From Filobasidium wieringae (lineage: Eukaryota; Basidiomycota; Tremellomycetes; Filobasidiales; Filobasidiaceae), in assembly GCA_001600055.1 (NCBI GenBank), contig BCIV01000005.1, positions 950,228 to 1,014,227 of the forward strand: DNA of 64,000 nucleotides, read 5' to 3'. Position numbers and translations under genes: made by a program. Shown here one piece after another: positions 2,519-58,075 of this stretch (positions are counted from its first letter, which is position 1; each line of letters begins with the position of its first letter). The notes below the pieces were generated by a model that saw only the letters and a program-made list of their open reading frames with translations, ran no database searches and was not told the origin of the DNA.

Positions 2519-2898
2519 CTATTCTTCCGAGCTCTCCAGTTCATCAATTCTAGGAGGAAGGATCAGATTCGTAAGACACAGGTTGAAGATAACAGATAAC
2601 ATAGCGTACTCATCAAGGTGAGGCGCCCTGAGTAGCTCCATCTGCTCCTCTTCGGGATCTTCGATGTCAGAGGAATCCCTACATTTAGAGGGAGTTAGTG
2701 GCAGTCCGGAGGAAGATAAGACTTGACTTACATAGGCTCCTCCTCAGGTTCAAGATCAAGGTCTAATCCGATACCCCTATTCTCTATCCCCGTATCCTCA
2801 TCAGAGTCATCTAACTCATACTCTTCTTCCTGAGAGACCGGCAAAGGGATATCTTGATTAGGGGGCGTGGGTTTCTGGCGTCCTTCTCCTTCCGTACT
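2519..2898 (-). pseudogene. In-frame coding-like continuation of family gene A
   Basis: Immediately after the TAG of gene A the same frame reads on (STEGEGRQKPTPPNQD...), is strongly acidic (EEEYELDDSDEDTG), then meets a good intron (GTAAGTC donor, AATGTAG acceptor, about 2730-2680). It resumes as DSSDIEDPEEEQMELL and ends at TAG 2519-2521. A clean intron and acidic composition argue that this was, or still is, the 3' end of gene A. Either gene A carries a nonsense mutation or its stop is bypassed. A 28-nt GT...AG segment spanning the stop is too short and not a multiple of three, so splicing does not explain it. Confidence 0.4.
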
Positions 2899-3771
2899 CT
2901 ACCCCTTCGACGATTCCGCTTCCATCTGGCGAGCTTGAACTAACCCTTCCTCCTCCGCTTCCATCTGCCGAGCTTGACCTAACCCTTCCTCCTCCGCTTC
3001 CGTCTGCCGAGCTTGAGCTAATCCTTCCGCTTCCACTTCCATCTGTTGAGCTTGAACTACCGCTTCCTCTTCGATCTGCATATGTTGGACTTCAATCAAA
3101 TCTTCCTGAGTATTCTGAGTTCGCGCTAGGAATCCATCCGTAACGAGCTGAAGTCCCCTTCGAGCGGTCACTCGAGATTTCTGGGTAAGGATGGGGATTG
3201 AAGTCCAAGAAGGACTTTCAGAAAGGATGTATGGCTCCAGATCCTCGCCTTGGATTTCAGTGACTTCGGAATGAAGGCTGTAGTAGAGCGTTTCAAGGTC
3301 AGAAGGAAGCGTTCCTAGATCCAGTCCAGTACCGCAGGGCAGACTGATGACTTGACTACGCTCTGCTCTCCTGACACGCTCGATCGCCGCCGAAAGATAG
3401 TGTTGACCAGAGCGCGGGACGAGTATGGGAAGCCCGATGGTCTTCAGTACAGCTTTGATGACGACTGGATCGAAGTGGAAGGGGCCTTTGATCCCTTCGA
3501 CGAAGGTCTGCTTGAAGATGTGTCCCATTCCTTGCCTATGGCAAAAACGTCTGGCGATGTTGTTCGACTTAGCACGGGTGAGATCAAGGTGAGTAAGAGT
3601 TTGAGAAGCAAGATTGAGGCGCTTGAATAAGGGACTTGAGGCTAGTTGCGAAAGAACGGAGTCTTTATATGTTTTGGCTGACTGCAAGAGGGTTTGAATT
3701 GATCGCCCACGGACCGTCCTCGTACGCTTCTGGCGTCCATGATTTCCTCTACCTGACTTCGTAGGAGCCAT
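2899..3771 (-). CDS. Repeat-linked family protein A (unknown function)
   Basis: A 290-residue protein from ATG (MAPTKSGRG) to TAG, in one exon. Residues 1-30 are very basic. Residues about 75-215 form the domain shared with the genes at 16601-17681, 20137-21099 and 57409-58075: an FHFD motif, then an A-x-LKTI helix, a variable loop and LETLYYSLHSEVTEIQ. Next comes the VTARRGLQLVTDGF motif, also seen in family member B. The C-terminus is four copies of a 13-residue acidic/Gln repeat (QARQMEAEEEG type) encoded by a 39-bp DNA repeat. The upstream repeat element lies about 195 bp before the ATG in the same orientation. After the TAG the same frame stays open and protein-like to 2519 (separate entry), so this stop may be premature. 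No known family recognised; a basic N-terminus suggests nucleic-acid or nuclear association, which is inference only. Confidence 0.6.
   Translation of the reverse strand: MAPTKSGRGNHGRQKRTRTVRGRSIQTLLQSAKTYKDSVLSQLASSPLFKRLNLASQTLTHLDLTRAKSNNIARRFCHRQGMGHIFKQTFVEGIKGPFHFDPVVIKAVLKTIGLPILVPRSGQHYLSAAIERVRRAERSQVISLPCGTGLDLGTLPSDLETLYYSLHSEVTEIQGEDLEPYILSESPSWTSIPILTQKSRVTARRGLQLVTDGFLARTQNTQEDLIEVQHMQIEEEAVVQAQQMEVEAEGLAQARQTEAEEEGLGQARQMEAEEEGLVQARQMEAESSKG
2919..3029. repeat. 39-bp tandem repeat inside gene A
   Basis: Units of 39 bp start at 2919 and 2958; the third (from 2997) is shortened to 33 bp, and a diverged fourth follows. On the minus strand they encode the QARQMEAEEEG-type repeats at the C-terminus of gene A. 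Length-variable coding minisatellite. Confidence 0.8.
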
Positions 3772-3965
3772 CTTGATTGGTGGCGGAAGGTGGCCACCAA
3801 AGTAGGAGCGTTGAGGTTTGTAGAACGAGGTCTACCAAATCAATCTGAATCTATACAAACTTCGTTGATGGGTCGAGTTCTTGGCTGCGAATCGAAGGGT
3901 CCTTTGGGCCAAAAGGAATCTATGTAAGCAGGCCAATCTCGGTCCCGGTCGATACGTGACGTAAG

Positions 3966-4020
3966 GTAGTGTGCCCCAAACTGCAATAGACGCGCCGTTT
4001 GTTACTACAAAACGCGGTTG
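3966..4020 (-). repeat. Family-linked upstream element, copy A
   Basis: Read on the minus strand it starts CAACCGCGTTTTG, contains the core TAGTAACAAACGGCGCGT and ends near TTTGGGGCACA. The core is identical to copies at 15961, 19038 and 57139. It lies about 195 bp upstream of family gene A and points toward it. It could be a promoter element or the terminus of a mobile unit. Confidence 0.85.
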
Positions 4021-4055
4021 TAATCGGTGTATGACAGCGGCAGGCTCAGGGATAA

Positions 4056-4175
4056 ACCAGATAACTTGTGGTCCCCTGTGGCTAGCTGCGAGTAGGCCTA
4101 GAGGACAAACCAGATAACTTGTGGTCCCTTGGTGGCCCCAAACACCTAACCTACGGACCAGATAACTTGTGGTTC
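4056..4175. repeat. Three direct copies of ACCAGATAACTTGTGGT
   Basis: The 17-mer occurs at 4056, 4109 and 4157 (spacings 53 and 48 bp), each followed by CC or TC. Each copy is internally palindromic (ACCA, 9 nt, TGGT), and flanking bases extend this (GGACCA...TGGTCC in part). The copies are upstream of gene A beyond the family element and upstream of CSN3. Looks like a repeated protein-binding site or a small repeat relic. Confidence 0.7.
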
Positions 4176-4776
4176 GTAGGGGGGGTTGTTTTTTTGCTAA
4201 CCTGCTGGCTTGATCGATAAATTATCGAGTTGTCGGTCTCACGCGTATCGACCTACCCAACAACACATAGCTCGGCGGGAAGACAATCGGCGCTGACCCA
4301 TCCTTTGCACCGGATCTCGTGATATGTTGTGGATTCTCTACCCAAACGACATAGACCTCGAGAGGTTTGTTTGAATATCAATAGAAACCTTGACACGATC
4401 TGTGCACGTTTCGAAGTGACGACAAGGAATTGAGCGGTTTAAAGGATGACGAGCAAGCCTTGATTTCTGTTGGGTTCGTTCATCACTTTTGGCTTTTTTC
4501 ATGTCCTTTAGGCATCGTTTTCGACGTCTTTGACCAGTAGGGAAGGGGTCTCTCACTCGATCAGAAGACGTTATGTTCGTGACTACGTCCCACTACATGA
4601 AACACGAAACTTGAAACACTCGTTGTAAATGCCGAATGATTGGATAACGCATAGGAAAATGCATTAAGATGACGAAGCTTGGGCCTTAGGTTAGCCCAAA
4701 CGATCTCAACCTTCCGCATCTTCCTTCCATCGTATCTCCATCCAGGATACTTCGCCGTCTATACTTATCAGCAACC
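4176..4776. promoter_or_regulatory. Intergenic, likely CSN3 promoter
   Basis: No credible gene. Pyrimidine-rich stretches (CTTCCGCATCTTCCTTCC) precede the CSN3 ATG, as is common for 5' leaders in these fungi. No clear TATA box. Confidence 0.4.
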
Positions 4777-7212
4777 ATGTCGACCCATTCCTACCTCCAT
4801 CCACTTCCCGTCCTCCCAAAAAAGGACACGCCCACAAGCCTAACGAACCTGGTCACGTTCGTCAGAACTACCTATGCTCAGTCCAATCATCCGCTCAAAT
4901 ATAACACCTGGTTGAAAAAACCTCTGGAGAAGATCTTACCTCTTCAACAACGAGATTCCAAGGAGCCGAAACAACCAGCTTCCAATGAAAATGCTACGAC
5001 CGGTCTAGTGGGCGTGGAAGAGGAAGAACCTGTCCACTCGATCGAACAGAATCAGAACCAGGGAGAGAAATCCGGGCCCGCTGTGACTCAGAATTCGCCA
5101 TCGCAAGCTCCTGCTTTACAAATCACTGCGTTGGAGCGGGAGATCTTGCAGAAGGAACTTTCCGGATCTGAACCTCCTCTGTCCGATCGAGCTGCTCTGG
5201 TATTGCATATTGTGTGAGTCCCGATGGGACCGACTATTACGGTCTTTCACTCCGCTGATATCCGTTTAATGTTCCTTATAGTGCTCGTCATTTCCTTACT
5301 GCCAACAATTCCGTTCAGCAAAACCCGCAATCCCTCTATGCACTGGTCGAAAGAATAATGACTCAATCTCCTGCAGGTTTGTTAGGGAACCTCGATGTCG
5401 CTCGTAAGTCTCTTCCGCTGAAGTAGAAGGATGCCAGTGGAACGAATAATTGATGATGGCGTTGAATATACCAGTATCGATCGTTGCAAAGGGTCTGATT
5501 AGCTTAGGAAAGATACATCATACCGTAAGCCGTCTCTGTCAACCGGATCCCGTAGCATTCCACTGACGTTTATTGTATCTTTACGTTCCATATGATCTTG
5601 ACACCAATCTATACCTCGGACCATTCATCCCGATCGGATGAAACCAGTACGATCGTTCCCTCCCCTTAATCCTCTCCATGCTCAATCAAGTACAACGTCG
5701 ATCACCGAAGAGCCTCAGTGCTATCCACCCTGTATTTTTGGAGGTAATTCACTTTTCCTCTTCAACCGAAACGCAGTGGGATAATATGTTCTGAACCTGA
5801 TCCCACTGCATCTTTACGCCCTCGGGTAGATCTGTATGATACAGAACGACGCAGTTACAGCAAAACCCATAATAGATATCGAAATCGAGGACCTCTCTTT
5901 TGTACGTCCCCTCCCACCTGTCATCGCTCTTCGGACAATTGACCCATTTCCGATTGGTCCTGTATCGTAATCTATACAGTTCAAGATAACGACGATGGAT
6001 TTCTTAATGTACCACTACCATGCCGGGTTGCTCTATATCGAGTTGGGAGATTGGGAAATGGCTAGGGAGATGTTGGAGATGGTCAGTTTGCTAGTCAATC
6101 ATTCCTTGTCCAATTGATGGGGTTGGCATAAAGGAAAATGGAAGAAAGCAAAGGGAACTGATCTCTGGTTGTTTGGGTTTCGGGGGATAGACGGTCACTG
6201 CTCCAATTGAATCGGGGAACCCTTGTCAATTGGCTGCGCATAAGAAGCTGAGCATGGTCAACCTCATCGTCGATGGCAAAGTGAGTCTAGCCTTTCTCTG
6301 CCCATTGTCCACCAGTCAATCAGAATGAGCTGATCGTCCGTTTCATCTAGGCATTCATATATCCCAAATATATCAGCTCCTCAGTAGGGAAGATGATAAG
6401 GGAGGGTTCACAGCTGTATGACGGACTGGTAGCGGCTTTTGAACAGAGGGATGCGGGGGCGGCGTGGACTGCGAAGGTGGACGACTTTGCGAAGGTAAGT
6501 GATCATAGGACTTTGGATTCTTCGGGTTTCTGAGCCACATGCGATTTCGATATTCTAGGAGGGCAACGAGATATTACTGGGTCAAGTACAGAAGGCCTTC
6601 CTAGAGAGACAGATCTTGGATATGACTCGGATCTATTCCCGTATCTTCGTCAAGGATGTCAGGGAACGGCTTTACGCGAGGGATGGGAAGGGACGGATTA
6701 CGGATGAAGAGGTCGAGGGGATCGTGGTTGATCTGGTCGGTACTACTTTCCATGGCTAAATTCATGCTGGAAGAAGTGGGGTGCTGATGTTTGAATGGTC
6801 GACAGGTTTCAAGAGGAAAGCTTTTCGCGAAAATCGGGACGGACACGGCTATCTCCCCCTTACCATACATCTCGTTCAACCCTGACCCGGAGGAATATAA
6901 CACGAAAGCTACCGTCTCTACGCTGGACGACTTGATCAAGAAGGGTAGAGATTTGGGAGCTAGTATTGCGCAGCGGGATAGGAACATGGGCTTGCAGGAT
7001 GAGTGGGTCAATCGGGTTAGTCATCTCGTTTTTTGTCGATCACGCGGAAAAATAAGCTGATTGTGCTGGGTCGCGAAACGTCGGCGGTGGGTGATTAGGT
7101 CGTCAAGAGAGAGCCGACTGCGGCTGCTGATGCGATGGGAGTCGATCCGTTGGGAATGAAGGTGGTCGGGGTCAAGGGGGTAGGAGCAAATTGGGCCGAT
7201 ATGGGTTATTGA
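4777..7212 (+). CDS. CSN3: COP9 signalosome subunit 3
   Basis: Eleven exons (4777-5213, 5282-5403, 5475-5524, 5648-5743, 5830-5901, 5980-6081, 6191-6280, 6351-6494, 6559-6735, 6806-7015, 7099-7212) give 1614 nt, 537 residues. CSN3 is a PCI-domain scaffold subunit of the COP9 signalosome, the complex that removes Nedd8 from cullins. The match to animal CSN3 is collinear: a YHYHAGLLYIELGDW helix, a TVTAPIESGNPCQLAAHKK segment, an IYPKYISSSVGK segment, a C-terminal PCI region ending in VSRGKLFAKI, and the SFNPDPEEYN motif (family: SFxDNPEKYN). Residues 55-115 are a low-complexity insertion. The donor of exon 9 (GTCGGT) is weak but gives the best conserved frame. Confidence 0.9.
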
Positions 7213-7635
7213 GCTGGTTCTTGATGGGCGCTCGAATTCAGGCCTTTTCCGTTCTCATACCCTTTACGAACCCACACGACCTCGATCTTTGCCTGAATCC
7301 TTTCCCCGACTTATGTGGGCTCCTATGTATCGCCCGCTCCTATGTATCGCCCGAAGATTTGATATGGTTGTATACTCTCAACTCTCAGCTTTGAATTGCT
7401 GCCCAATCATCCATCCAAGATGCGCTTACCGACAGCTATACGGTACTCTCGATATCGCGCTCCAACGATATGCGCAGCCGATCCCGGACATGTCCGTGAA
7501 CGTGATGTAAGATGATGCGATCGACTTTTGTTGCTTATAACCCCTAACATCTCCCTTCCTGCAATCAGCGATCCCCTCTTCACTCCCTCTTCTCTCTGAC
7601 ATACAAATCCAACCAACGACACCCAAACAACTATC
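7213..7635. other. Intergenic between CSN3 and membrane protein gene
   Basis: Short open frames only. The last 100 bp before the ATG at 7636 are C/T-rich and likely the 5' leader of the next gene. I see nothing else. Confidence 0.4.
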
Positions 7636-9688
7636 ATGGTCGTTCTCGGAGAAGACGGGAAGAAAGGCGATCAGCCTAGCCAAGTCAATCGACCCATCCG
7701 TACCGACTCCGCATACGAGACCGCTTCCCACCTGACCTCCATTGACCCCTATGTAATCCGCAACGACTCCCCGGTTCCTCAATCGAGTTCAAGGGAGCTT
7801 GAAGGATCGGACGAAAGATCTCCACTTCTCCCTCCTGCTTATACCGATGATAGAACCCAGACGGGGAATGGGGGTAGACAATCCCCGCCCATCTCGGGCA
7901 CCGCAAAACCTCCTTCTCGTAGGGTTTGTGGACCTCTACCTTCTTGGCTCAGATTTACCACGCATACCTTGTTCAAATTGGTGGTCGGAATGATATTGTT
8001 AATTGTGGTGGGGATCATTGCTATCCCCAAGATCATCCAGCATGGAAGGGAGACCGGGACATGGCCTGAACAACCGGGCCAACCTAACAACCCGAACACA
8101 CCTGATGAACCGGATAACTCTGGCGGTGGAGGTGGAGGAAATGGTGGGATTCCATGGGACAATAACGGCCGTGCCGTTTCCTGGAACTCTTCATGGGTTA
8201 GTAAAGTGATCTCACTTTCCGTTCTGTTAGAGAATTCCGTTAACCACGATTTGATTGCTTGCTTTTCCCCTAGGGAGCTAAAGTCACTTTTGATAAACTA
8301 GAGTCGCATCCTTTCAAATGCGACGGTTTCACCCTTCCTGAACCGATCAGTGAAAACGGCTACAAACGCCTTTCCAGTACTTCCACCTACCGTCTCCCCC
8401 TCTCCGCTCAGACTTTGTTCTTTCATACGAAATCCGGCCCTATCGCTGGGAAGATCAACGTCCTTACCCGGAACGAGATTGGGAAGATTGAACAACAAGT
8501 TCCTGGATTAGATTTGGGAGAGGATAAGGAAGGAGAAGGGGTTGTGGTAGTTCAGGCGGTTTTCGGAATGGGAAGGGAGAGGGATTGGGAAGGGTTCCAC
8601 GTTTGTCAAGCTGGAGATGGGGTTGAATCTGCTGGGGTGTTCATCTTGGTGAGTCCCGTTCTCCATCGCTCGATGCCGAAACATGATGATTAGGTTTGCT
8701 GAGACGATTTCGGCTTTATTAGAACGAAGATCCTTGGAGGAAACCGACTCCGGGTTTCGAAATAGAATGGAACATCTACCTCGTCTTTCCCTCTTCTCAC
8801 GCTCATTCTCCTCTCTCCTTACATAACCTGGATCTCACGGGAATCAACATGCCCATTGAAGTTTATCCTCAGGCGGGGGAGACCACTCGGTTCGAGCAAG
8901 TAGGATTCGCGACTTCTAACGGGAAGATACACATTCCTTCCCTCTCCGCCAGAGAGTTGGACCTCCGATCTACCAACGCGGGGATTCTTGTGGATCGTGT
9001 TAGAGGAGGCTTGGCACAAGGCCTCATCGAAACCACCAACGGTGTGATCAGCTGTGCGGATTGTTGCCCTTCTGCAAGGGAAGAACGTCCCAAGTCTTGG
9101 AACTTGGTGACTTCTAACTCTGGAATCGCTGGGAACTTTTGTGCAAAGGATTTCATCAGGGTCAGGACCAGTACGGGAGCTGTCGCAGCGGACTTTGAGG
9201 CCCCTAGTGTGGACATTCAGACAACCAATGGGAAAGTTGTTGGCAAGTACAGAGGGATTAGGGAATGGTTGAGTGTGGGCAGTACGAATGGAATGATGGA
9301 TGTCGAAATCGGATTTTGGGACGATGCTCAGGACTCGCTTGTGCTCGCTGGGAAAGAGAAGATTCGACATATCCCCATAGTGATCGAAACAACTAACAGT
9401 CACGTCGACGTTACCCTGGAGAATCTACCTATCAATATCGAAGTGGATGCTCACGTCGAGACGACCAACGGTCAGATCAACTTTTACGGACACGAACATT
9501 TCCAGGGAGAATTCGAGGCGACGACTTCCAGCTTCAGCCATATTGCTCTCGAAAACTTGAACAAGGTCAGGCAATGGAGTGTGCGGTTTGCGAAGGGATA
9601 TGCGAGGGGGACGATCGGGGAGAAGGGAGGGGTCTGGGGCAAGATCAGTTTGGAGACGACTAATAGCAATATCAGGGGGGCTATTTAG
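7636..9688 (+). CDS. Single-pass membrane protein with adhesin-like (DUF4097/DUF7330-type) ectodomain
   Basis: Three exons (7636-8196, 8274-8648, 8723-9688), 1902 nt, 633 residues. Residues 1-110 are hydrophilic and carry the SPLLPPAY motif. One transmembrane helix follows (about 115-137, LVVGMILLIVVGIIAI), then a Pro/Asn/Gly linker (EQPGQPNNPNTPDEP, six glycines). Residues 300-633 contain many turns of a beta-repeat marked by TTNG or STNG (IETTNGVIS, IQTTNGKVV, VETTNGQIN, LETTNSNIR), the pattern of DUF4097-like putative adhesins with a beta-solenoid fold. The order suggests type II topology with the repeat domain outside the plasma membrane or in the secretory lumen. Role unknown; binding or cell-wall contact is inference. 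Two Cys at ADCC may form a disulphide. Confidence 0.8.
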
Positions 9689-10408
9689 CGCGCTCTATTG
9701 CGCTGAATTCACGTGTATGTGGACCTGCGTCTTTGTTGGAAAACGTTTGTATCAGTTTGTGAGATTGTGAACGATTTGTTCTTATGTGGTATAACTATGT
9801 CTGCACTAGCTGCACTACTGGAGTGATCGACCATTTACATCCGGTCAGACATCTGTCACGTGATCTGGAGGCTGGAAATACATCCGAAGATCGAACGATC
9901 GAGCTCCAAGGTTGTTATAAGCCGAAGCTCGACCTTCTCTTCGCCACATAATTCATCGATTCTCTACACCTCAGCATATTCATCATCTTTAGCATCGACA
10001 TACAGTCTCAAGCACAGACAACTTCATTCTCTACTACATCGCATCGGGTTCTCCTCATCAACTTGCCCCTGTACTTACACCGCCTGTATCTTCACGCTAT
10101 CTACGACATCGCCTCGTACTTTTGACGACCTTGGAATTCACGTTGCATCACGATACGGACACGCATTATTCTGCATAATTGACTTACACAAGGGACCACA
10201 GAACATCTCGACTAGTACGCGGCAATCAACAACGACCTTTGTCATTTCATCGAAACAATCGCCACTCACCAAAGTACAAAGGAAAACAACTGATCTTTAA
10301 TTCGATCGCCTACAAATCCTTAAGACAGCTCGCATCAATCGCTCACAACTCGGCTTCATATACTAGCATCAAACAAATTACATCAAGCTCGAAGACTTCC
10401 ACGACATC
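9689..10408. promoter_or_regulatory. Intergenic and long 5' leader of the NYN gene
   Basis: About 720 bp. The 500 bp before the ATG at 10409 are A/C-rich with runs of CTCATCA and TACATC and hold overlapping short frames. This resembles a long untranslated leader or a 5' UTR intron region rather than a gene. Confidence 0.35.
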
Positions 10409-12480: not shown

Positions 12481-12957
12481 CTGTATCGCATCGCATCGCA
12501 TCGTGACTGTATAAAAAGATATGATGCATTGTCGAAATCGATTGAAACCAGAAGTCACTTTCCCCGCAACTTGACTCTTGACGACGCTTCTACGACTACA
12601 TTCTTGACGACCTTCGCAGAAATATGTTCTTTGACTGCATTCCGCACAGCCTGTTGGCTATATTACGACCTCCAACGAACTATATGATTCGCATTGTATC
12701 TATTCCCTATTAGCTCGATGGTCATTTCGGGGTGACCACGTCGATTGTACAGGAATGGTTAAACAGGGAGACAATCGATCAATCTCGTCTCATCCCCGCC
12801 TCTTCCCCAATCTCTCGGGTCCTCTTCCACCAAGTCCAGGCCATTATGAATTACCTAGCCTCAAAGACCCAACAGACGTTCTCCGACTATTCCCTATGGA
12901 TCGAAATCAAGACGTTGAAGCGGGATGCAAGGCGGGTCGAGATATTCTTTCGTCCAC
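12481..12957. other. Convergent 3' intergenic region
   Basis: Between the stops of the NYN gene and PAN6. Contains a short (CGCAT)n microsatellite near 12486-12502 and A/T-rich stretches suited to polyadenylation. No gene seen. Confidence 0.4.
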
Positions 12958-14239
<1,282 letters not shown>

Positions 14240-14595
14240 TCGTAGGCGATGCTATATCCTTGTGGTCCCAAGATCCCAAGGTGTTGAAATATTCAAGAGG
14301 CAAGCAGCTGCAGTCTAGACAGCCTAGCGGTGCAGGTAGGAGTAGGAGGTGGCCGAACGCAAGGTTTATGTTGCCGAAGTCAAAATTTGCATCCGACAAG
14401 ATTGTTGATCATATTCGAGGTCAGAATCGACTTTCGATGGACTCATGCCGGTTCATTTTAGCCGACCACAAGACCCTTTAAACAAAGCTGAACAGTCTGA
14501 AATCTACCCCGATCTATCACATCTCTATCACAGCAAGACTTGCCCCCATCATTCCTGATACAGAGCACCTGTACTCGTTTCAAGAATAGCTCACA
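14240..14595. promoter_or_regulatory. Divergent promoter region PAN6 / RPC31
   Basis: 356 bp between two start codons. No clear TATA box. A C/T-rich leader (ATCTATCACATCTCTATCAC) precedes RPC31. Contains short open frames only. Confidence 0.45.
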
Positions 14596-15588: not shown

Positions 15589-15960
15589 TAGAAAGGTCTA
15601 AATATGTATTACGCATCATCATGAAACTGTACTTGTAACGATGGATTCGATATCTTCAGTAGTACACCCCTCTTCCTGATGATGATGAGCATCATGAACA
15701 ATCCGACTATAGAAGATCATATGGCTAGACGATGTGCGGTGTGACAAGACTGCGGGGCGCGACAACAGCCGGGTCGAGTCCCTTGGGACGTCAAAAAGGG
15801 CAACACAACAGATTGCAAAAAGTACTGAACCCCATGACCTTAAAGAAGGAATCAGGCGTCAACAGATGCTCTAAAGAGAGCAATGGACTTTACTCATACC
15901 TCCGAATTGGTGGTAGCTAAGCACCAATTCTAGATGTCAAGGACACTTGTAAAGTACCAA

Positions 15961-16026
15961 CTACAACCACGCTTTGTAGTAACAAACGGCGCGTTCATCG
16001 AGTTATCGCGCCCGCAAGGGCACACA
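15961..16026 (+). repeat. Family-linked upstream element, copy B
   Basis: CTACAACCACGCTTTG followed by the core TAGTAACAAACGGCGCGT and TCATCGAG. Same core as copies A, C and D. It is 640 bp upstream of the ATG of family gene B and in the same orientation. The right flank (GTTATCGCGCCCGCAAGGGC) differs from the TTTGGGG(A/C)ACA flank of the others. Confidence 0.85.
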
Positions 16027-16600: not shown

Positions 16601-17681
16601 ATGGGAAGGGCAAAAAAAGCGTATGCTCGACGATATCGTGCGCAGATGAAGAAGTTCAAACGCTCCCTGGAACAGAGAGAGAAGACAGCTGGAACAGTCA
16701 CTGCTAGCCTGGCGCGTACCGCTTTCAAGACTAGTGAAACGCTCAAATCACCACTAGAACCAACGACGACCTTTTCTGTTCCATCCGTTCAAGTTGTTCC
16801 ACTCAGTCATTCCAAGGCAAAGAACCAATGTCGAACGGTCGACCTCTCAGATTATAGGTATCAAGAATCCTTGGAGCTTTGCAAGGAACTGGATGTCAAA
16901 GGTACGAGCGCTCTTCCACAAGATGTGGGCGCGCCACTCATCAACTGTCCGTGTCCATTAAATCAGGCTTATTCCATTTCGACCACAATGTTCTACTCGC
17001 TTTACTTCGTACTATCAATATTCAACATAAGATCCCAGTTCCTGATCATCCTCAATCACGCTACCTCTTTGCTGCTCTTTCCATTATTCGATCACATCAG
17101 GCGGACCCAGCTCCTCGTGTACTGTTGGGTGAAATCTCAGTGACGCTACTTACAGTCTATGGAATACTGCTTACGGAATTACATGAAGAGATTCCAGGAG
17201 CCGAGTTCCAGATTCCTGAGGGATGCTACTGGCAGACTGCCCCAATCTATCAACAGCATGTGAATCGATTCATTGAGATCATGCGCCGACCCGTGAATGG
17301 GACAACTCAGAATCAGTACGTAAATCATGAACATAGTGAGTCCACGCTTCATGTAATTAAAGTTTCAGTCTAACTAATTCTACCTTACGCTGCAATTAGG
17401 AATCCATGAAGGGAGAGTCACGGGACGAAGGATACGGCTTTTATTGAATGATTCGGTCAGGATTATCGGACCGAGGGAGGACATCTTTGTAGACCGGATG
17501 CCCTTCCATGGACATTCGACTACGCCCCGTCATGTTCCTAACCGTGCCCCTACGTGAGTTTTACCAACTCTTCTGCGTAACCAATATTGAGCTTTGCTTC
17601 GGTTGTTCTAGTTTGTCCAGCACTTGGCCTACGTTTGATGCTCCCGAATCATACTTGTTTCAAGCTGATATTTCTCGGTAA
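16601..17681 (+). CDS. Repeat-linked family protein B (unknown function)
   Basis: Four exons (16601-16901, 16967-17335, 17400-17553, 17612-17681), 894 nt, 297 residues. Starts MGRAKKAYARRYRAQ, a basic stretch as in members A and F. The first splice creates the family motif (VKG/LFHFDHNVLLALLRTI). The rest of the domain follows (RYLFAALSIIRSHQ, LLTVYGILLTELHEEI, YWQTAPIYQQHVNRF), then RVTGRRIRLLLNDS, which aligns with VTARRGLQLVTDG in A. The frame stays open upstream of 16601 without another Met. The apparent stop after exon 3 lies inside the GTGAGT donor, so exon 4 is needed. No known domain recognised. All exons are intact, so this copy may be functional. Confidence 0.65.
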
Positions 17682-18605: not shown

Positions 18606-18953
18606 GATCGATTGTCTGTTACTGGTTCACATGTGAGCAGTCGTGTCCTAGACGGCACTCACCTAAAGTCCGGAAGTTCATGGGTGCACCAACGCTTGAC
18701 GAATATGGATATTGGACGTCATTCAGTATTAGACGAGACTACGGATGTTGTCGGTTTCGAGCGGTAGATACAATCAAAATCCACCACACTACAATGAGGG
18801 AAACGTTAGTAAGAAGCATGTTGTAATCCTGTCCCGATCCGATGGCCGGAAATGGAGGGCAAAAAAGAACGCACGCTGCACAATGGACCTGGGTTGACAG
18901 GTCAAAAAGCACAACTCCAACCTCCCTTGGCCAGGGGGAGGAAGGTCGAGTCT

Positions 18954-19017
18954 AGGGGGTACATCTACCGCACGCAAGACTTTAATGTGCTTTTAGGCCA
19001 GGGGGTACATCTACCGC
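18954..19017 (+). repeat. Direct repeat GGGGGTACATCTACCGC x2
   Basis: The 17-mer lies within 18954-18971 and again within 19000-19017 (46-bp spacing), just upstream of family element copy C. Confidence 0.7.
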
Positions 19018-19037
19018 TTCTCAGTCCGAAATATACA

Positions 19038-19092
19038 GACTACAACCGCAACTGTTAGTAACAAACGGCGCGTCTATCGACTTTTGGGGACA
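19038..19092 (+). repeat. Family-linked upstream element, copy C (no intact gene)
   Basis: GACTACAACCGCAACTGT, core TAGTAACAAACGGCGCGT, then CTATCGACTTTTGGGGACA. Closest to copy D. No intact family gene follows on the plus strand; member F lies beyond on the opposite strand. Confidence 0.85.
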
Positions 19093-20136: not shown

Positions 20137-21099
20137 TTACATCATCTCACTGTCCCCCTTCGCATTGCGAACCGACCCCTGGCTACCCCTATTTCCGCGT
20201 TCTTCAATCGAGTGCGTTTCCTTTTCAGTTTCCGGCAACGAGTAATCTTCTGCAAGGATCTTTTCAAATCCTCTTGTAACATCTTGAACTCCAGTATCCT
20301 GGTCTAGTGATCGATTGAAACGGAGGTCAACGGGAGCTTATGGGGCCGCATAACGGGATGGTACACATACCTTGGGGAAGGACGACGGCTGCCCTTATCT
20401 GATTCGCTTTCTCGTCCTGAAGAGCAGAGTCGGGGATGCAACTCCAGAACGGTCCTGGCGGAGGCATGAAATGTTGCTCTGCTGTGTCATCATTTCCGTC
20501 TCCATCTCCAACCAGCATAAAGATCTCGTGGTTGATCAAGTTGTATATAGTGAACATGTGATTGGGGAGGATGCCGAGATCTTCGATTGGAAGGGAAGCA
20601 GCATGACGGCTAGCCTTCAGAGCGATTTCAAGGTGAGGAGAGGAAGAGGTTGAGAAACGATTAATCGGCTTGGAATGTTTTTTGAGGATCGTAGAGATGA
20701 TCGCAGCGAGAGTTTGGGGCTGATAATGGGTTGCACCTAGGAAGGAGAACCAGATTCAGCGTGATCACTTATAATGAAAGATAGGGAGGTCTCACAAGTG
20801 ACACCGAGTTGAATTCCGAGTTTTAGATAAGTACCGTAAGATCGGTAGCATCTAAGACGGAAACATTGTTTACGAGCGGCATTGTTGCTCAGAGCAGCGA
20901 GCGGGATTTCAGAGATAGTTGAGACTTGTGGGACATGCGGCTGAAAAGGAGGGACGTCAAGTTTTGAACCATAGAGAGGTCTAGCATCCGCCGTCACAAC
21001 TTTCCCTGGAGCTGGAGAAGGTTGCTTGGCGTAGGGATGGGCCTCATGTCGGGGAAGTCGACGAGGGCGACGTTGGTATTGTCTGCGAGTCGGTGCCAT
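20137..21099 (-). CDS. Repeat-linked family protein F (unknown function)
   Basis: Three exons (21099-20796, 20736-20371, 20303-20137), 837 nt, 278 residues. Starts MAPTRRQYQRRPRRLPRH, so it shares MAPT plus a basic tract with member A. Splicing gives THYQPQTLAAIISTI, then SPHLEIALKASRHAA, ILPNHMFTIYNLINHEI and EKANQIRAAVVLPQ, collinear with the shared domain in A and B. The last exon has GVQDVTRGFEKIL, matching GLQLVTDGFLART in A. The C-terminus is acidic. No copy of the upstream element was found before its start. A short open frame on the same strand at 19512-19769 could be debris of another copy. Confidence 0.6.
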
Positions 21100-29647: not shown

Positions 29648-33016
<3,369 letters not shown>

Positions 33017-49019: not shown

Positions 49020-50404
49020 ATGTCACGTATCACTATCAGCCCGGAAACCTTTGCTCGCTGGTCGTCCATTGCTACCAAGGAGAAGCACAAGAGCGAGGAC
49101 CCCAAAGGGTACTTCAACACACAGCATTCGTGTCACCTATGCGGGAGATATGAGGATCGACCAAGCACCCGAGAAGCCCACTACATCACTGCTCATGCCG
49201 GTGCAAGGTTTTGTGAAGATTACACCAAGTGGACCTATAACACTTGGTCTTGTCACGCTTGTGGAAACGACTGCGAGACGGAGAACGAACGCAACGCCCA
49301 TTATGCTCGCTTCCGTAAGTCCTTCTCTTTCTGTTTGCCAATAAAAGCTGACTTTCCTCCTCATTAGATCCTGGTGTCGCGATCCGTTGGAAGCAGGGAC
49401 AACCACAGGATGCTCATCAAATTAGGTATCACTACAAGCCTGCCGAAAAACAGCCTACCCGGGATCCTGTTGGCGCTTCTGAAGTTACTCAGATCGACGA
49501 CTCGGATAATGAGGATGAGATCGACCTTGCTCTAGCTGAGGTGGATGAGCTTGAGCCCTCAGTCGTGGAGACTGGTCCTGCGGCAAGACTCCTCTCATAC
49601 TTTGGGATGTATGGAAAGGTTCCTACCGCACCTGTTCCTACTGCACCCGTCATCCGAGCTGCCTCCCCACCGAGCGTAGTCTCCCCACCGAGCGTAGTTC
49701 TAATTGAGAACCATCCCCTCACCCCCATCCCCCAGAAATTGCAGGCGTCCATCGGTGCTTGGCGAGCTGGACTTATCGAGGGTCCTGAGCCTGTTGTCGA
49801 GCCTCAATCACCAACTTCTCCTACTTCTTCCTTGAAGAGGAAGCGTGGAAACACTAAGCGAGATGATAACCTCGCTAAACGGGGAGGAACATTCCAAAGG
49901 TTTTTAGTCACAGCTGGAGTGCGTCTACAAAGCATAGGTGAAGCTAGGAGTTTCAAGACACCGCTATCTACTTTGGATCTCCAACAGATGGAGGGCCTGG
50001 CTCGAGCACCGTGCGAACAGGTTATTGAGGCAGCTCTCGAGTTCGGCCAGCACATACGAGCAGCTGAAGCCCTCCTGCAACAGCGGAAAGAAGCAGATGA
50101 AGCCTTCCTGCAACAGCGGAAAGAAACAGTTGAAGCCCGCCTACGACAGCGGGAAGAAGCAGTTGAAGCCCGCCTACGACAGCGGGAAGAAGTTTTTCTA
50201 CAGAAGAAACTCGCGCTGAACCAGAAAGCTGCCAACCAGCGTGCTACTCAAGAGCGTAGAAACGAAGAATGGGAGAAGGACAACCGTGAGATCAGAGAGC
50301 GCAGGATCAGCCTTGACCTGCGAGAAGCAGAGCTCGAGGCGAGTGAAGAAAACGCCGAGATTATCGAGGAGTTAGCGAGGATCAGCAACGAACAGGCTGA
50401 ATAG
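49020..50404 (+). CDS. Two-zinc-finger coiled-coil protein, unknown function
   Basis: Exons 49020-49314 and 49368-50404, 1332 nt, 443 residues. Two C2H2-type units lie in residues 35-105: CHLCGRYEDRPSTREAHYITAH and CHACGNDCETENERNAHYARFH, each C-x2-C-x12-H-x4-H. The last His codon of the second finger is split by the intron (C/AT), which supports the splice. Residues 150-270 are disordered and Pro-rich with short internal duplications (VPTAP, PPSVV). The C-terminal third is a long charged coiled coil containing four 11-residue repeats (AVEARLRQREE type) encoded by a 33-bp tandem repeat. No known family recognised. Possibly a lineage-specific DNA- or RNA-binding protein. Confidence 0.7.
50061..50192 (+). 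repeat. 33-bp coding tandem repeat x4
   Basis: Four adjacent 33-bp units start at 50061, 50094, 50127 and 50160. Units 3 and 4 are identical, so the last duplication is recent. They extend the coiled coil of the zinc-finger protein by 11 residues each. Confidence 0.85.
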
Positions 50405-50550
50405 CCGAAAGAAGGAAATGAAGGGAAGAGCTTTTTGTCTTTGTCTGCTAGGTTTCGTCCGTGTCATGTCTGTCTTATCGGTCTCGCTGTCCCGTAGTGC
50501 CGTCGTCTTGTCTCGTTTCGCTCGATCATGTACCCATTAAATAGGCCATG

Positions 50551-52700
50551 CTAGTTTGATATACAACGTACGGTAAACATCCAAGAGACTGTGCACCTAC
50601 ATCTATTTACATCCTGACGATAATGGTCGAGCATATTAGCGAAAGATCTAGCTATCTCATTTTCCGTAACGTATGACTCACTTTGTGCGAGAATCGACGG
50701 GCCATGCTCCTTCCACTCATCCGCTCCTACCCAAAGCTGATGGAACGTTCCTAAACTACCCAAGATTGATCCTCCTAGCCAAGCGGAGTATCTTCGTTCG
50801 ATACTGTTTCCAGGTGCGTGAATTTTGAGCTTGTTTCCAGGAATTTTGTTACCCAATTCGAAATTTAGTCGGTCTGTCAGACCAGGAATGGTGGATCCTC
50901 CGCCAACAAGGACGATATTTTGTAGCAGGATAGCTCGGTAGTCTGGATCCACTGCGAAGACGCTATCGTGCACCAGTTCTGCTAGACCTTTCAGCTCGCT
51001 TAGTGGATGAGAGGTTGGAGAGGCAGGAGTAGCGTAGAGTTGCTCAGGCGGACCAATAGTCTATTCCGTGTAAAATCAGTTTCAGCTTCTCATCGGTAGC
51101 AAACGAAGGAGAAGATAGCGCTCGACGAGATTTCGAGTACGGATATCGTCCGACGCGACGATGCGACAAATATCTGCGACCCGAGGAACAGCAAAGTCCA
51201 GTCGCGTAATATTTGGTAATAATTTGGCCAAATATTCGGCCAAATTATTACGCACTTCGTGGTATTCACGTGACTTGCGATTCACGTCTCTGAAGGGCCA
51301 CCTGAACCACAGATGAGGCTCACCTTATCAAGATATAGCTCAGGGTTGAAGAGCACTTCGGGCAATCTAAATCTCTCCTCGCCGAAGTTGTTTGCGTATC
51401 CATCGGGAAATTCGTAAACCTTTGATCCTCTTGAAGTCGCTTGCCTAGACAGGATCCACCCTAAATCAGCATCTTCCTTGATATGTACGGAACGCCTGGA
51501 GCGACAGTTAACTTACTCGGGCACAAACGGTAGAGGGCTGACCTCGGCACAGGCCTCCCTCCATCCATCTACCACCCGTCCTCTCCAGTACTCTTTCCAA
51601 GAATCTGTCGTCTTATCCAATCTAGCTTGATTCCATGTAACATTAGCTGAATGACCGAGTGATACTGGTTTGCGAGATTTTATGAGGTGGTGGGACAGAA
51701 GAGAAGGTGGGTTGGGCAATGTCGATAGGTGAGAGTTGATTTGAGAGTTTAGCAGGGTCAATGAAAGGGGTTGTCTCTTCGTGCCTGGTAAAGTGAGATT
51801 TTACCAGTCAGAACAGAAGAGCCTAGGATCATTGAACGGAATCGAACTGACCTGATCGGATTGCATACCCCTCACAGATTGGAACTACACTGACCAGGTC
51901 ACTTCCAATATCCACAATCAAAGCGGTTCCTTTCCCTGCAGCGAAACTAACCCAAATTCTCGATCAGCCTTCTCTTCCATTCCGTAGCGCTCATGACTAT
52001 ACTCACGCGCTGAGGACAGAACTGCATGCGACGTAGAACCCAGGCACACCTTCTCCCTCGAAAGCGACTTCTGCCATCAATTCTCGTGAAGAAGTAGGGT
52101 TCCAGGCAGGTTCGGTCATTATCAATGGGTGTTCCATTGGATTCACTTTCAGTGAGGTATGAAGGGCATGATGCAGGATATGAGGGAATGCCTGAGGATC
52201 CGAGACTATGCACACGAAATGGTTCAGCTTGCGAGAGGGTTTTTGAGCTGTGGAGAATGACGTACCGACACCATCCCTCATCATATTACCAACCTCCATA
52301 CCCTCCCGCCAGATACCGACTCCTTGATCTCCGACAAAGTACCTTCGCTCTACCCTCTCTTTCTTTCCGATTTTGGTCCTCTCATCCTCTTGTTCCGTTG
52401 TGGCAGGCTCCTCGGCCAATTCGATATCCCCGTTTCCGTTGGATGAAGGGACATCAAGATACCCAAATGCGGTTGGAATCACGCTTCGAGGAGTCTCTTC
52501 ACCCGCAAATCCTGACCTGATCGTTTGAGTTCCGATATCGATAACTATCGCTGAGACCTCGTCTGGAATTTGCGGACGAGAGGTACGTGCGTCACAGAGC
52601 GAGAATGGTCATTTCGCATCAGTGTGGCTGGATTCCAAAGGCTACTCAGGTATGCCCGAACATGATCAGACCCACCTCCTCCGTACGTAAGCGGGTTCAT
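50551..52700 (-). CDS. ARP4: Actin-related protein 4 (BAF53-like)
   Basis: Exons 52700-52676, 52562-52266, 52205-52007, 51946-51852, 51784-51517, 51444-51324 and 51060-50551 keep one frame (up to 504 residues). Arp4 is a nuclear actin-fold subunit of NuA4, SWR1 and INO80. Marks: start MNPLTYGGDEVSAIVIDIGTQT, SGFAGEETPRSVIPT, TEPAWNPTSSRELMAE, ALIVDIGSDLVSVVPICEGYAI, NIVLVGGGSTIPGLTDRL and RYSAWLGGSILGSLGTFHQLWV. An acidic insertion sits near residue 60. The actin DSGDG loop is changed to DIGSD, as common in Arp4. The last codons are uncertain: a GTGAGT donor near 50683 may lead to another short exon. The sixth intron is unusually long (about 263 nt) and carries a hairpin. Confidence 0.85.
51216..51251. 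repeat. Perfect 14-bp inverted repeat in an ARP4 intron
   Basis: GTAATAATTTGGCC (51216-51229), an 8-nt loop, and GGCCAAATTATTAC (51238-51251). The host intron is about four times the usual length, so a small insertion is likely. Confidence 0.8.
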
Positions 52701-53350
52701 GGTACCGAGACTATATCAACAGTATGATGACTTGTCCAAGCAGACAAGGTGATTTCGACCTCAAAATTGAACGGTTTCAGACGCGATTTCTTCGCTTGAG
52801 TTGATGTGGGTGTATCGGGTTGGCTGAGGAGGAGCAGGAATGGATATGTTTCAATACCAGTGGGCCAGTTGGGCTGCTCATCGTAGTCGCCTAGATATGG
52901 ATATGTCTTGTTTGAGCCTCCTTCGACCTTAATTTAGTGGTTGGCGCGTGGGAAAATAGTCGAGATTCGCTGGTTCAGCAGGTCGTCAAGGATAGTAACG
53001 ACCTTTGGATAGGTTGGTATCCATCTGTTTCAGCTTCATACCCATATCTTGACAACCTACAATAGTGAAGAGCACGTCTGATTACTCGATAGACCCTCAG
53101 CTGCCAATTTGCCAGGGAGTTTTCAGGTTAGATCGTACTCTCCACGGTCTAAACTCGGAAGCGGCGAGCAAGCTGGTGGCATTCTTGCGATCGAGCAGTC
53201 AAGTTCAGGCAAGAAGAGCAGCTAGACATAGATACCCTTGGGGCTGAAGAGACCTCAAGGTAGAGCGAGCAACCTCTGGGGCAAGAAGGAGTCTACGTAG
53301 CAGAGAGCCATCGTCAAGCTTGACATTCTCTACCTTGAACACTGTCGTAG
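52701..53350. promoter_or_regulatory. Divergent intergenic ARP4 / TPR gene
   Basis: 650 bp. A 60-codon open frame at 53065-53247 reads partly protein-like but has no recognisable features. Nothing else seen. Confidence 0.4.
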
Positions 53351-56300
53351 ATGGGCAAGAGCAAGAAATCGGCAACGAAGCAAGCCAAAGTGGCTGCGGC
53401 CGACAAGTTGCAGCCGCCACCAGCACAGGCTGTATCTCGAGCTGTCGAAATCCCTGCTCAACCTACTTCAATACCTACACTTCCAAGAGAACCCGCTCAT
53501 GCTGACCAAGATGCGTCTAGCTACCCTGAACGAGGAACTCAAGGGGATGTGGATGGAACGAATCAAGGGGATCAAGATCCTTCGCTCTCTCTATCTCTGG
53601 AGTCCGATCCTGGGCTAAATTCATATCCTAATCACCCATACCCTCCGACATCCATCACGTCACTGCATCAACCGGGTTTCTTAGATCCTCCTACCGCTCC
53701 GGCTTCCTCAGCTCATGGTCTAGGACTGGGACCCACTTTAGTAGTTTTGGACGATCCTTCCAACAAATACCTACAAGCGCAACAGACCTTCTATGCAACT
53801 CACCCACCATCACATACTTCGGTGACCTCCTCGATCCCCAATGTACCTCCCCCCCTCCCCGTCTCTCTCCCTCGGTTACCGTGCATACCGCCTCTCGTTG
53901 TTCATCAAGAACAACTATACTTCGACGACGGTCTTGGTGCACCTGGAAGATGTCCTCATGAGCGGAATTGGGGGGAAATCGGGAAGGAACATAAGGAGGA
54001 AAGAGGACTAGGATTGAGTGATGTGGAGATGGACGATTTCATGGTGGATCTAGGGGACCTTGTCAGCAAAGAGTATGATGCTTGGATTGAACGGTGCTGG
54101 TGAGTTTCGGAAGGCCCTTTGACGTGAGAGATTGAGATAGGCGTTGATGGTGGTGTGTAGGGTGGAAGCATTTCATTATACATATACCGTCTCCCTTCCA
54201 GCCCTTATCATCGGTTTTATCCAGTGTGGCTCAACTCCAACTTTCCTTCGTCGCAACATCATACACGGCGGCTCCTCCATCGATGCTCTCTTAGCACATA
54301 ATTTCCGAATATTACTACGGGAAGAACACGAACGCAGGATGTCCGATGAAGACGGTTCTCGAAGGGGAGTAGATATCGGTAACCTTTTGGCAGGGCTAGT
54401 ACCAGGGACTATGACGAGTAATACTGGAAGCGGATCTGCAGGAGGGGGAGAGAGCAGCAACCGATTAGGCGTTGGAGGCAGAGAAGGGGCAATGACGGAG
54501 TTCCCGTTGAGTGCTACGAATGGAAGTTGGATGGCTCAGGCTAAGAAGGAAGCGGAAGATGCGTACAGCTTGAGCAATGGAATTGCCTCTGGCAGACGGT
54601 CTCCGGCATCACAGCCGAATAACATACAGCAACCGTCGGGGGTCGTTAACGGGAAGGATACGGGGAAGAAGGTTAAGGGCAATGCAGATGTCGCTTCCGT
54701 GACAGCAAACTTGACGACAATGAACCTGGGAGATGCGGTACCACCGCCCTCATTTCGAAAAGACGATAGACCGAATGGTGCCACGCCGCATGGGAACGGT
54801 TACACTCATCTTTCGCCAAGTCCACATTCCTTGCTTAACACGAATCCAGCTGATGCAGGCGCAGGAAGTTCGGCAAACTCGACTTTCCAACATCCTCAAC
54901 AACGGCATCTGTGGGATCCAGCACGGACAGGTTATGGCAACGGGGTTTGTTTCTACGATCTAGCATTACTGCATGGAAGAAGTGGGGACGACCATGCCCC
55001 ATGTATGTGTGATCTAACAGCTTGTAGGACCTGCTTCCACGAGCTGTTGTACTTCAGAGGAAGAAGAGAGGTCTTACACGTGCCTGAGAACGAGGACGAC
55101 ATGGATGAAGAGGACGATGAGCTCGCTGAAGAAGCGGATGAGCAGGACCATGACGGGCATCATCACCATCATCATCACAGTGACCACGAGTATGACCATG
55201 ACCACGATCATGACCATGAGCACGAACACGAACACGATCACAATCACGATCCTGATCATGAGCACGACCTAGAGGTCAGTGATGAATACGAAGAGGTTGA
55301 AGAAGGCGAATGTGACGACGAGGATCACGAGCACAATCGGCAACATCATCAGCATCATCATCACGCGCCGCAAGGCCATGCCAGGAGATCATCGCCGCTT
55401 CAGATCAAGCATCCAGATATGGCAGACATCATGTTGGTGGAAGAACATCTGCGGACGAGACTGCATTACATGGCCTCGCCTGATGTGGTTCTTCGATACG
55501 GTGATGAGGAAGAATTTATACCGTCTATGGAATACGTTCCGGTATCAGCGACGGACAATGCTTCCGGTGCTGGTACGCCTGTAGATGAAAAGGGAGACGT
55601 GCTGGCATCTAGCGGCAACAATCCGGTCGCAGCGAAAAAGGGTGTCAAGAAGATTTTACAGGGTCGAAAGATGAAGGGTGGAAGAGTGGTAAAGGGGGGT
55701 ATCCCACCGAAAATCATAACACCCAAGCAAGAAACGATCCCTGATGGGCAAGATGGTGTTCAAGGTGCAAGCAAGGAGGGTGGAGATGTCCCAATGAAGC
55801 CGAGGTTGAACGGGAGTCAGCTGCCGCTTTCCTGGACTCTAGAGAGTGCCAGTTCGCGAAACATGGCAGTGACATTGACGTACAGGTACCTTGTCAAAGT
55901 GAGCTCGAAACTGCCTAAGTGTTTTGGCCTACGACTAATCCGATTCTCATTCAGCTTCTTCATGCCACTGCTGTCTACATGTCGCCGTTCGACTTTGACG
56001 ACTACGCTGATGACTCGGCTGTTCTTACCGAGATCCACCCTCTTGCCGTGTATCGCCGTCTAGTGGAACCATACGTTCGAAGGAGGGCGGCACAATATGC
56101 TGATCTACAAGCGAAAGCTGCAGCTGGCGGCAAGCCCTTCCCTGATAATGATCACCCCGGGTCGGAGGTGTTGAAGATCGATTATAAGGCTTGGAAGAAT
56201 TGCATGGAGAAGTGGGAGAAGGAAGTGGCTGTCCGAGAGAAGGAAGGGGTGAGTCTCGTACATGCTCCTCCAGCTTCGTTGCATCAGGCTTACATGAACT

Positions 56301-56788
56301 GAATAGGGAAATGCTATCTTGAAAACGCAACCCGCTCGAGCAGTCGCTTTCTATACTCAAGCTATTTGTTTGGACAGCGAGAATCCGGTGTACTATCTCA
56401 ACCGAGCTGTAAGCATAGATACAGAGCTTTTTTCGAGACGGTGTAGTTGAAGCTGTTAAAATCAGGCGGCCTTCAATGCCATCGAGAATTACGAGGATGC
56501 AGAGATCGACTGCTCTCGTGCACTTCTCTTGAACAAGTCGCATCTCAAAGCATGGTACAGGCGAGCGATCGCTCGCAAAGGCCTCGGTAGACTCGATGAG
56601 GCTGAACAAGGTGTGCTTTTTATTGTTTCGTCCTTGCCCGTGGCTCAAGAACTGACCCTAGTCGATCAGACATGCTACAACTTCTCTCGCAAGCACCCAA
56701 CATCCAGGCGGCGACTGCAGAGCTTGCTGCTATACGCAGAGAAATCGAAGATATGAAGCGTAGAGAGGAAATTGATGAGGTCGATTGA
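53351..56788 (+). CDS. TPR protein with His/Asp-rich tract
   Basis: Six exons (53351-54099, 54161-55898, 55955-56248, 56307-56408, 56466-56610, 56670-56788), 3147 nt, 1048 residues. Starts MGKSKKSATKQAKV. Residues 1-230 are Pro/Ser-rich. A Cys-rich patch follows (CFYDLALLHGRSGDDHAPCMCDLTACRTCFHELLYF) at about 520-555. Next comes an acidic stretch and a tract of about 40 residues dominated by H, D and E (seven His in a row, then alternating DH and EH) and a second His cluster (RQHHQHHHH). The C-terminus has three TPR-like helices (GNAILKTQPARAVAFYTQAICLD, PVYYLNRAAAFNAIENYEDAEIDCSRALLL, LKAWYRRAIARKGLGRLDEAEQDM) as in co-chaperone TPRs. Metal binding by the His/Asp tract is inference. Close relatives unknown to me. 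Confidence 0.75.
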
Positions 56789-57138
56789 AATTGTAGACGA
56801 TCTCCTTTCTCGTTTATACCATGTCATCCACTGTGTCGCCGCATGACCACGGTTGTGAGATCGATTCGGTGCTCTTCAACGACTTCTTATTGAGCCTATA
56901 AACTTGCTGCTCAAGTTTTGCGTTTCCCTAACTACGATGTGAGAAGACGTAAGCAGTCTCCAAGAAAAAGGCAAGGACAAAAAGCCGTCGACCGTCTGAG
57001 TTGATCAGGCTCAGACGGGGATCTTGGGTCTTGAAGAGACGACTTGACGACTTTGCCAGCCCTGCAATTGCTTGGAGAGACAGGGCGCGCTACGAGATCT
57101 GTTCCAGAAGCAGCGGGTCATCGGCGGTGTTAGACCCA
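56789..57138. other. Intergenic, start of second accessory island
   Basis: 3' flank of the TPR gene with a short palindromic pair GCCGTCGACCGTCTGAG / CTCAGACGGGG near 56985-57017. No gene seen. Confidence 0.35.
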
Positions 57139-57194
57139 GACTACAACCGCACCTGTTAGTAACAAACGGCGCGTTCATCGCCCTTTGGGGACAC
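57139..57194 (+). repeat. Family-linked upstream element, copy D
   Basis: GACTACAACCGCACCTGT, core TAGTAACAAACGGCGCGT, then TCATCGCCCTTTGGGGACA. Differs from copy C at only a handful of positions over 55 bp. Lies about 215 bp upstream of degenerate family member D in the same orientation. Confidence 0.88.
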
Positions 57195-57408
57195 TCAGGC
57201 GTCTCGACGAGAGCGCATATGCATTGTCGCGTGATATGTGTAAGTCAGATCCGCGGATTTCCGCCAGATTCGTCATCACTATTGCTGGTACACTCTGATC
57301 ATCTTTCGTCGCAGTCAGACCGTCAACTCTCCTACTCGAATTTGCTTCATTACCAATAAGAACACCCTGGCATATCTGGCGTACCTGGCGTGGCGTCATA
57401 GTACTTAG

Positions 57409-58075
57409 AGCTACGCAAGCAAGCTTCGTTGCCGAGAAACAAAAGCGGCAAACCGAGCAAGCGTAGCGTTCGACCGTACGAGTACGTCAGGCATTCATCC
57501 GCCAGAGAGGCTCGTCAGATTGCCTGTAGGATAGGATATCATGAAGTCTACAACGCAATTTACGATGGTACCCCAAGTAAGTTCCCCAGTTTCTAGTGTC
57601 TCCTGCATTTCGATAGGAACCTGCACTCACATGGCTCGACTTAGCTGTGTTTCATTATCACGCTGAGGTGCTTCGCGCTCTTATTAGAACGATCTCTCCC
57701 ACTGGGATACCCTCTTTAGGAGCATGTCCTAGCAACCTTCACCTCCTCATCATCGTGCTATCTATCGAGACGGAATACCAAAGGCCCAATTGTAGAAAGA
57801 TCAATGACTTCAGGATCGGAGGAGAATTACCAGAAGAGCTTCTGCCAATATACCTGATTCTTCATTCTGAACTCACGGAATTCGAGGGGATGGAGGACGA
57901 GAAGCAGGAGGCATATCAAGGTTGAGCAGTCTGGACTTCGATACCCCGCTTCAACGAGGAGAAGGCAAGAGAATTCGCCAGGTTTAGGAGGCTGATCAAC
58001 GACGCTTGCACCGCGAGATTTTTTGATCACCCCCCTTCACCGACTGAAACCTCTGAATCTCGGGCGCGTAGTTAG
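57409..58075 (+). pseudogene. Repeat-linked family member D, probably degenerate
   Basis: A basic N-terminal part (RKQASLPRNKSGKPSKRSVR) runs into REARQIACRIGYHEVYNAIYDGTP, then a GTAAGT intron (57577-57644) joins to VFHYHAEVLRALIRTI, the family motif. The domain continues (LHLLIIVLSIET, LPEELLPIYLILHSELTEFEG) to a TGA at 57923-57925. The same frame then reads AVWTSIPRFNEEKAREFARFRRLINDA, matching SWTSIPI and the C-terminal motif of member A, to TAG at 58075. No in-frame Met exists in the first block, so the start is missing or in an unseen exon. Missing start plus internal stop indicate a pseudogene, unless read-through occurs. Confidence 0.6.

Follow-up and report, generated by a model that had tools for sequence, protein, structure and literature searches.

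Lineage-specific orphan gene families of fungi turn over by birth and death, and they are marked by strong divergence, pseudogenes, clustering and restricted distribution. The 64,000-nucleotide stretch of Filobasidium wieringae DNA analysed here (C5:950228-1014227, C5 being contig BCIV01000005.1; hereafter the window) contains four loci, A, B, F and D, of a gene family that has these same properties. It differs from such families in having a fairly confident domain model without a match in the Protein Data Bank (PDB) and in its repeated placement at promoters of the small nuclear RNA (snRNA) type.

In Caenorhabditis elegans, according to one report (PMC2527325), snRNAs, small nucleolar RNAs (snoRNAs) and small nuclear-like RNAs (snlRNAs) are found under the motif UM1 and stem-bulge RNAs under UM3, expression of a protein reporter can likewise be driven by the element, and the transcripts of some classes end at runs of T. 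As with these RNAs of the proximal sequence element (PSE), a single snRNA-type element in F. wieringae appears to serve spliceosomal RNAs together with many other small RNAs. Unlike in the C. elegans system, the host is a basidiomycete, 25 of the 30 RNAs lack an Rfam match, orphan protein genes stand head-to-head with RNA genes, and a T-run follows 29 of the 30 RNAs, U1, U2 and U4 included. Mobile elements provide another comparison, since papers have been published on the targeting of RNA polymerase III (Pol III) genes by retrotransposons (PMC5911963) and on two elements located within small-RNA genes, Dada and Utopia (PMC3706591, PMC4640811). The family shares with Ty elements, Dada and Utopia a recurrent location beside small-RNA genes, but differs in that no terminal repeats or shared flanks were found here, mobility genes not having been searched for.

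An orphan gene family in the window

The initial annotation had proposed that four loci of the window encode proteins with one common layout. All four are in place, and a homologous domain of about 110 residues was found in each of them:

2899..3771, minus strand: member A, main exon, 290 codons, with N-terminus MAPTKSGRG, the domain at residues ~95-205 and an acidic repeat tail
reaching 2519, minus strand: member A, possible extra 3' exons, uncertain
16601..16901, plus strand: member B, exon 1, encoding a basic N-terminus
16967..17370, plus strand: member B, domain exon, following a 65-nt phase-1 intron; the open frame ends at 17370 and the true 3' end is uncertain
20137..21099, minus strand: member F, exons 21099-20796, 20736-20371 and 20303-20137, with no upstream promoter element
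57409..58072, plus strand: member D, a pseudogene, with a remnant of exon 1 up to 57576 and the domain from 57645

The similarity among the four was checked with profiles built from three members, with domain boundaries set by eye, and run against the 1690 open reading frames (ORFs) of the window. Each fourth member was matched by the profile of the other three at E-values from 1.2e-13 to 1.3e-7 (A, 1.2e-13; B, 9.5e-12; D, 1.2e-10; F, 1.3e-7), and the best non-family ORF across the four runs reached E 0.25. Searching the whole genome (19.76 Mb, 33 contigs) with tblastn and repeated profile searches of fetched loci gave a copy number of at least 17 loci, which is a lower bound. Eleven of their domains are well preserved, namely those of A, B, F and D and of seven loci beyond the window:

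C5:779690, C5:818763, C5:916217, C5:949379, C5:1019296, C5:1030187 and C4:344662: further well-preserved domains, found by tblastn and profile (positions are shortened to kilobases below)
C5:785792, C5:802323, C4:719818, C9:420479, C11:362386 and C12:79377: six partial or broken loci

Leave-one-out runs with the 11 members gave E-values of 5.5e-25 to 6.1e-10, compared with 0.099 for the best of 200 shuffles each, values that depend on the choice of members because all 11 were gathered with a similar profile. Members also share a splice position. An intron directly before the FH motif, noted earlier in B and D, is present in both and is not limited to them, since F, C5:1019k and C5:1030k have it too. 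All five share a phase-1 acceptor located two bases upstream of the codon that comes just ahead of this motif, and their introns measure 59-91 bases. In B and C5:1030k there is also a nearer donor, which in B would give a 42-nt intron, and the D intron is 68 nt long (one base longer in a second reading). At the same site the frame is continuous, with no donor, in A, C5:916k, C5:949k and C5:818k, and C4:344k and C5:779k are ambiguous. The four-domain alignment has 14 invariant columns. Its identities to A are just 28-34%, which would suit a chance resemblance, but the leave-one-out E-values, the shuffles and the common splice position oppose that reading; the profile E-values refute it, and we give it almost no credence. 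A, B, F and D form a real orphan gene family that is undescribed as far as these searches reach.

The final motif of the proposed layout is weak, and a clearer mark is a tryptophan found in 10 of the 11 members, with a proline four residues later in eight of the 11, as read from the alignments. The MAPT start given for A and F is correct, and the basic N-terminus holds for all eight members counted, which have 9-13 K/R and 0-3 D/E in their first 40 residues; a ninth protein, without the domain, has an N-terminus of the same kind. Acidic tails occur in A and in the C5:1019k member.

The loci differ in their state of preservation. Member F has a full three-exon frame of 278 codons with its end at 20137 (splice sites chosen by hand). 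D, previously counted as a protein-coding locus, is a pseudogene instead, because it contains an in-frame TGA (57923-57925) and its exon 1 has no in-frame ATG past the last stop. Stops interrupt the match at four loci (D, C5:785792, C4:719818 and C11:362386) among the 17, and relics of the 3' part of A lie on C12 (84%) and C6 (69%), of which the C12 relic retains an intron-like GT..AG stretch that points to DNA-level copying. The ratio of nonsynonymous to synonymous substitution rates (dN/dS) for the C5:916217/C4:344662 pair was 0.46 over 115 codons (bootstrap 95% 0.25-0.83), indicating that the domain was under constraint for at least part of its history. Twelve of the 17 loci lie within 252 kb (C5, 779-1031 kb); the family had been called dispersed, a term that holds with a reservation, since 10 of the 11 well-preserved domains share this one stretch. 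The copies and relics show, at the level of the assembled DNA, that family members arise by duplication and decay, mainly in the 252-kb stretch of C5.

That the family went unrecognised at first agrees with the database searches, none of which assigned it to a known family. A Pfam scan of nine of the 11 members gave nothing above the curated cut-off and weak sub-cut-off matches only, NCBIfam gave no relative (a single unrelated match, E 0.12), and PDB sequence searches gave none either, with nothing below E 0.41; in PHROGs, one of the 11 members had one match, to a family without known function (E 0.026). The domain is predicted to be an alpha/beta fold of ~110 residues (predicted local distance difference test, pLDDT, 83.6), and comparison of the model with PDB folds gave no significant match, so that it would be a novel orphan domain whose structure is predicted with fair confidence and for which no solved fold was matched. 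Protein searches, which need shared 5-residue words and could therefore let remote relatives escape, matched two unnamed JGI metagenome proteins when all 11 members were used and nothing in an earlier attempt. A control search with the ATP synthase d subunit of the window matched many named Tremellomycetes (identities of 75% for Naganishia albida, 62-69% for Cryptococcus species and 93% for a metagenome protein). P0089, one of the metagenome relatives, has a more balanced N-terminus than the F. wieringae members, with 9 basic and 6 acidic residues by hand count. We infer that the family is restricted to the lineage.

A promoter element of the snRNA type

The genome contains 33 copies, at two or fewer mismatches, of a 17-base string that lies upstream of members A, B and D, against two for the reversed pattern. 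The conserved block measures about 40 bases, and a predicted small-RNA gene lies on one side of each copy examined (30 of the 33, the remaining three carrying 2 mismatches each). Beside the element, Rfam searches of 20 loci found U2 (E 1.3e-21), U6 (1.9e-19) and U4 (9.8e-12), and the other ten loci gave no match at E 1. Locus L033 is U1, with a full-length match and the exact start AUACUUACCU, at 15 bits and E 0.11, far below the family cut-off; the RNA of L041 matches it at 98.9% identity over 181 bases. snRNA genes thus make up five of the 30 examined loci, and the other 25 have no Rfam match. Because it directly precedes U1, U2, U4 and U6 genes, the element is best read as an snRNA-type (PSE-like) promoter. 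The four copies in the window and their RNA genes are as follows, with scores from a position weight matrix (PWM):

3984..4023, plus strand (RNA strand): element on the A side, PWM 59.3 bits, this site belonging to the PWM training set; best in one shuffled window -5.0
4031..4195, plus strand: predicted small-RNA gene divergent from A, T-run end, start estimated, fold z -3.78
15961..16000, minus strand (RNA strand): element on the B side, PWM 60.5 bits
15817..15953, minus strand: predicted small-RNA gene divergent from B, T-run end, start estimated
19040..19079, minus strand (RNA strand): fourth element of the window, PWM 65.5 bits; no family gene on its gene side in the three frames read
18904..19032, minus strand: predicted small-RNA gene of element 19040, own type, fold z -0.6
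57141..57180, minus strand (RNA strand): element on the D side, PWM 67.6 bits
56979..57133, minus strand: predicted small-RNA gene divergent from D, T-run end, own type, fold z -2.29

Two other readings of the upstream block were rejected. As a transposon end it would lack a second conserved end, none having been seen, and an RNA gene occupies its other side; and a promoter of the family only does not fit copies that, where examined, face RNA genes, four snRNAs included. Upstream stretches resembling repeat modules turned out to be the bodies of RNA genes.

The two sides of the element are unlike each other. A T-run of at least five T lies 100-260 bases away on the RNA side at 29 of 30 loci and on the gene side at two of 30, and the fold z averages -1.28 on the RNA side (11 of 30 below -2) compared with -0.04 in the gene-side controls (one of 30). 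The 30 RNAs form 20 groups at E < 1e-4, six of which hold two to four copies; the RNA beside A is 72.6% identical over 179 positions to one at C1:925983, and that beside B is 94.8% identical over 134 positions to one at C1:1023204. The promoter signature thereby reveals, in a basidiomycete, some 25 probable small-RNA genes that have no Rfam match.

U1, U2 and U4 are transcribed by RNA polymerase II in most eukaryotes. In F. wieringae the U2 (L043, C2:768496), U4 (L048, C9:335351) and U1 (L041, L033) genes are followed by a T-run, within ~25 bases as read by hand. A T-run alone therefore does not show Pol III transcription, and its presence at these genes raises the question of whether Pol III transcribes all snRNAs in this lineage.

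Head-to-head arrangement of family members and RNA genes

Among the 11 members with a well-preserved domain, five stand head-to-head with a small-RNA gene (A, B, D, C5:1019k and C5:1030k), and the element lies 5' of the member, ~220-620 bases from its presumed start (distances derived by hand, D having no start). Under null models of random, independent placement, which assumed nine of the 11 domains on C5 where the correct count is 10, this arrangement is unlikely both for five of six members in C5:950-1035 kb (Monte Carlo P 6e-6; the box leaves out C5:949379, just beyond its edge) and for five of 11 genome-wide (binomial P 1.4e-12). Three types of RNA lie beside A, B and C5:1030k, each of which also faces ordinary genes elsewhere: a Pfam scan of ten frames facing other copies found one domain of an RNA polymerase beta subunit, one SH3 domain and a DHHC domain that stayed below the cut-off, and three of the ten had no match. 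RNA copies are up to 97% identical, whereas the family proteins, in the wider comparison of members, are 18-30% identical to A, indicating that the RNA genes did not duplicate together with the protein genes and that the head-to-head association arose more than once.

One further element-driven RNA, in L046 2301-2900 (C5:1026201), faces a frame starting MGPARERRNRREAGKS that resembles a family N-terminus; beyond that start no family domain was detected.

A further orphan family, which profile comparison shows no relation to the first, is present at C1:63990-64697, C1:69250-69705, C13:559610 and C8:9092, and its two best copies (C1:64-70 kb) are also head-to-head with element-driven RNAs. A relic of this family lies in the window at 12768-12971 (56% over 66 residues), adjoining a candidate pantoate ligase gene recognised by eye.

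Possible origins of the association

The explanation that we favour, with confidence and doubt in equal measure, is that of a birth-and-death orphan family, probably nuclear, whose survival is favoured beside divergent snRNA-type promoters. Duplicated copies would land beside such promoters in the accessory stretch of C5, where they would most likely draw expression from the divergent promoter region, and copies so placed would survive because of it. Judging by their basic tails, turnover and relics, the proteins most likely reside in the nucleus and bind nucleic acids, and they may have a fast-changing role, for example in genetic conflict. Promoter sharing between an RNA and a family gene is plausible, given that in C. 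elegans a comparable element serves several RNA classes and can drive a protein reporter. If divergent snRNA-type promoters do nurse new genes, they would offer a testable route for orphan gene birth. Several observations weigh against this explanation. Transcription of the RNAs and of the family genes is deduced from sequence; the fold z is about zero or positive for several RNAs, the known U4 included; covariation of the RNAs is weak; and six of the 11 members (F, C5:916k, C5:949k, C5:818k, C5:779k and C4:344k) have no element in ~1.5 kb or more of flank. Moreover, 20 of the 30 elements adjoin no snRNA gene and do not stand head-to-head with the family, so that the proximity of the family may just reflect RNA genes occupying intergenic space.

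Of the alternatives, passive clustering ranks above targeting by an element, and the latter above an RNA-protein module. An accessory stretch might simply gather duplicated orphan genes and RNA genes with no selective connection between them, as would be suggested by one part of C5 holding seven of the 33 elements along with 10 of the 11 well-preserved domains, by an element (19040) that has no adjoining family gene and by a member (F) that has no element; five of six members head-to-head is nevertheless improbable even within the stretch (P 6e-6), and we consider passive pairing possible but rather doubtful. It is less likely still that a mobile element inserting beside snRNA-type or Pol III genes carries the family or gave rise to it. 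Different RNA types beside different members would fit repeated insertion, and the literature cited above holds precedents for targeting of Pol III and small-RNA genes, but no terminal repeats were found in 16 loci of 3-6 kb (longer elements not being covered), and these loci share no DNA apart from the element, its RNA and paralogous copies of genes. Furthermore, no tRNA gene was found in the window or in 13 loci by a scan with bacterial settings, and the domain, in the nine members scanned, matched no Pfam family, the flanks not having been searched for transposase or reverse transcriptase.

The RNA and the protein could instead constitute one module under joint selection, either a ribonucleoprotein or a killer-and-antidote pair, as might be supposed from the non-random head-to-head pairing, the basic N-termini and the similar pairing seen for the two best copies of the unrelated second family of orphan genes. 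We think this very improbable, because the same RNA types face ordinary genes (those for the RNA polymerase beta-subunit, SH3 and sub-cut-off DHHC domains) and because RNA copies are up to 97% identical whereas the proteins have only 18-30% identity to A, so the pairs did not duplicate as units. Equally slight is the prospect that the two unrelated orphan families, each linked with head-to-head RNA genes of an undescribed PSE-driven class, are parts of fast-evolving two-gene modules in which RNA and protein act jointly and different copies have acquired different RNA types.

Surroundings of the C5 stretch

STE3 pheromone-receptor loci are present at C5:736536-737167 and C9:680458-681447, and a STE12-type gene is on C10. 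The C5 STE3 locus lies ~43 kb from the first family member, and the family stretch could therefore adjoin a mating-type region.

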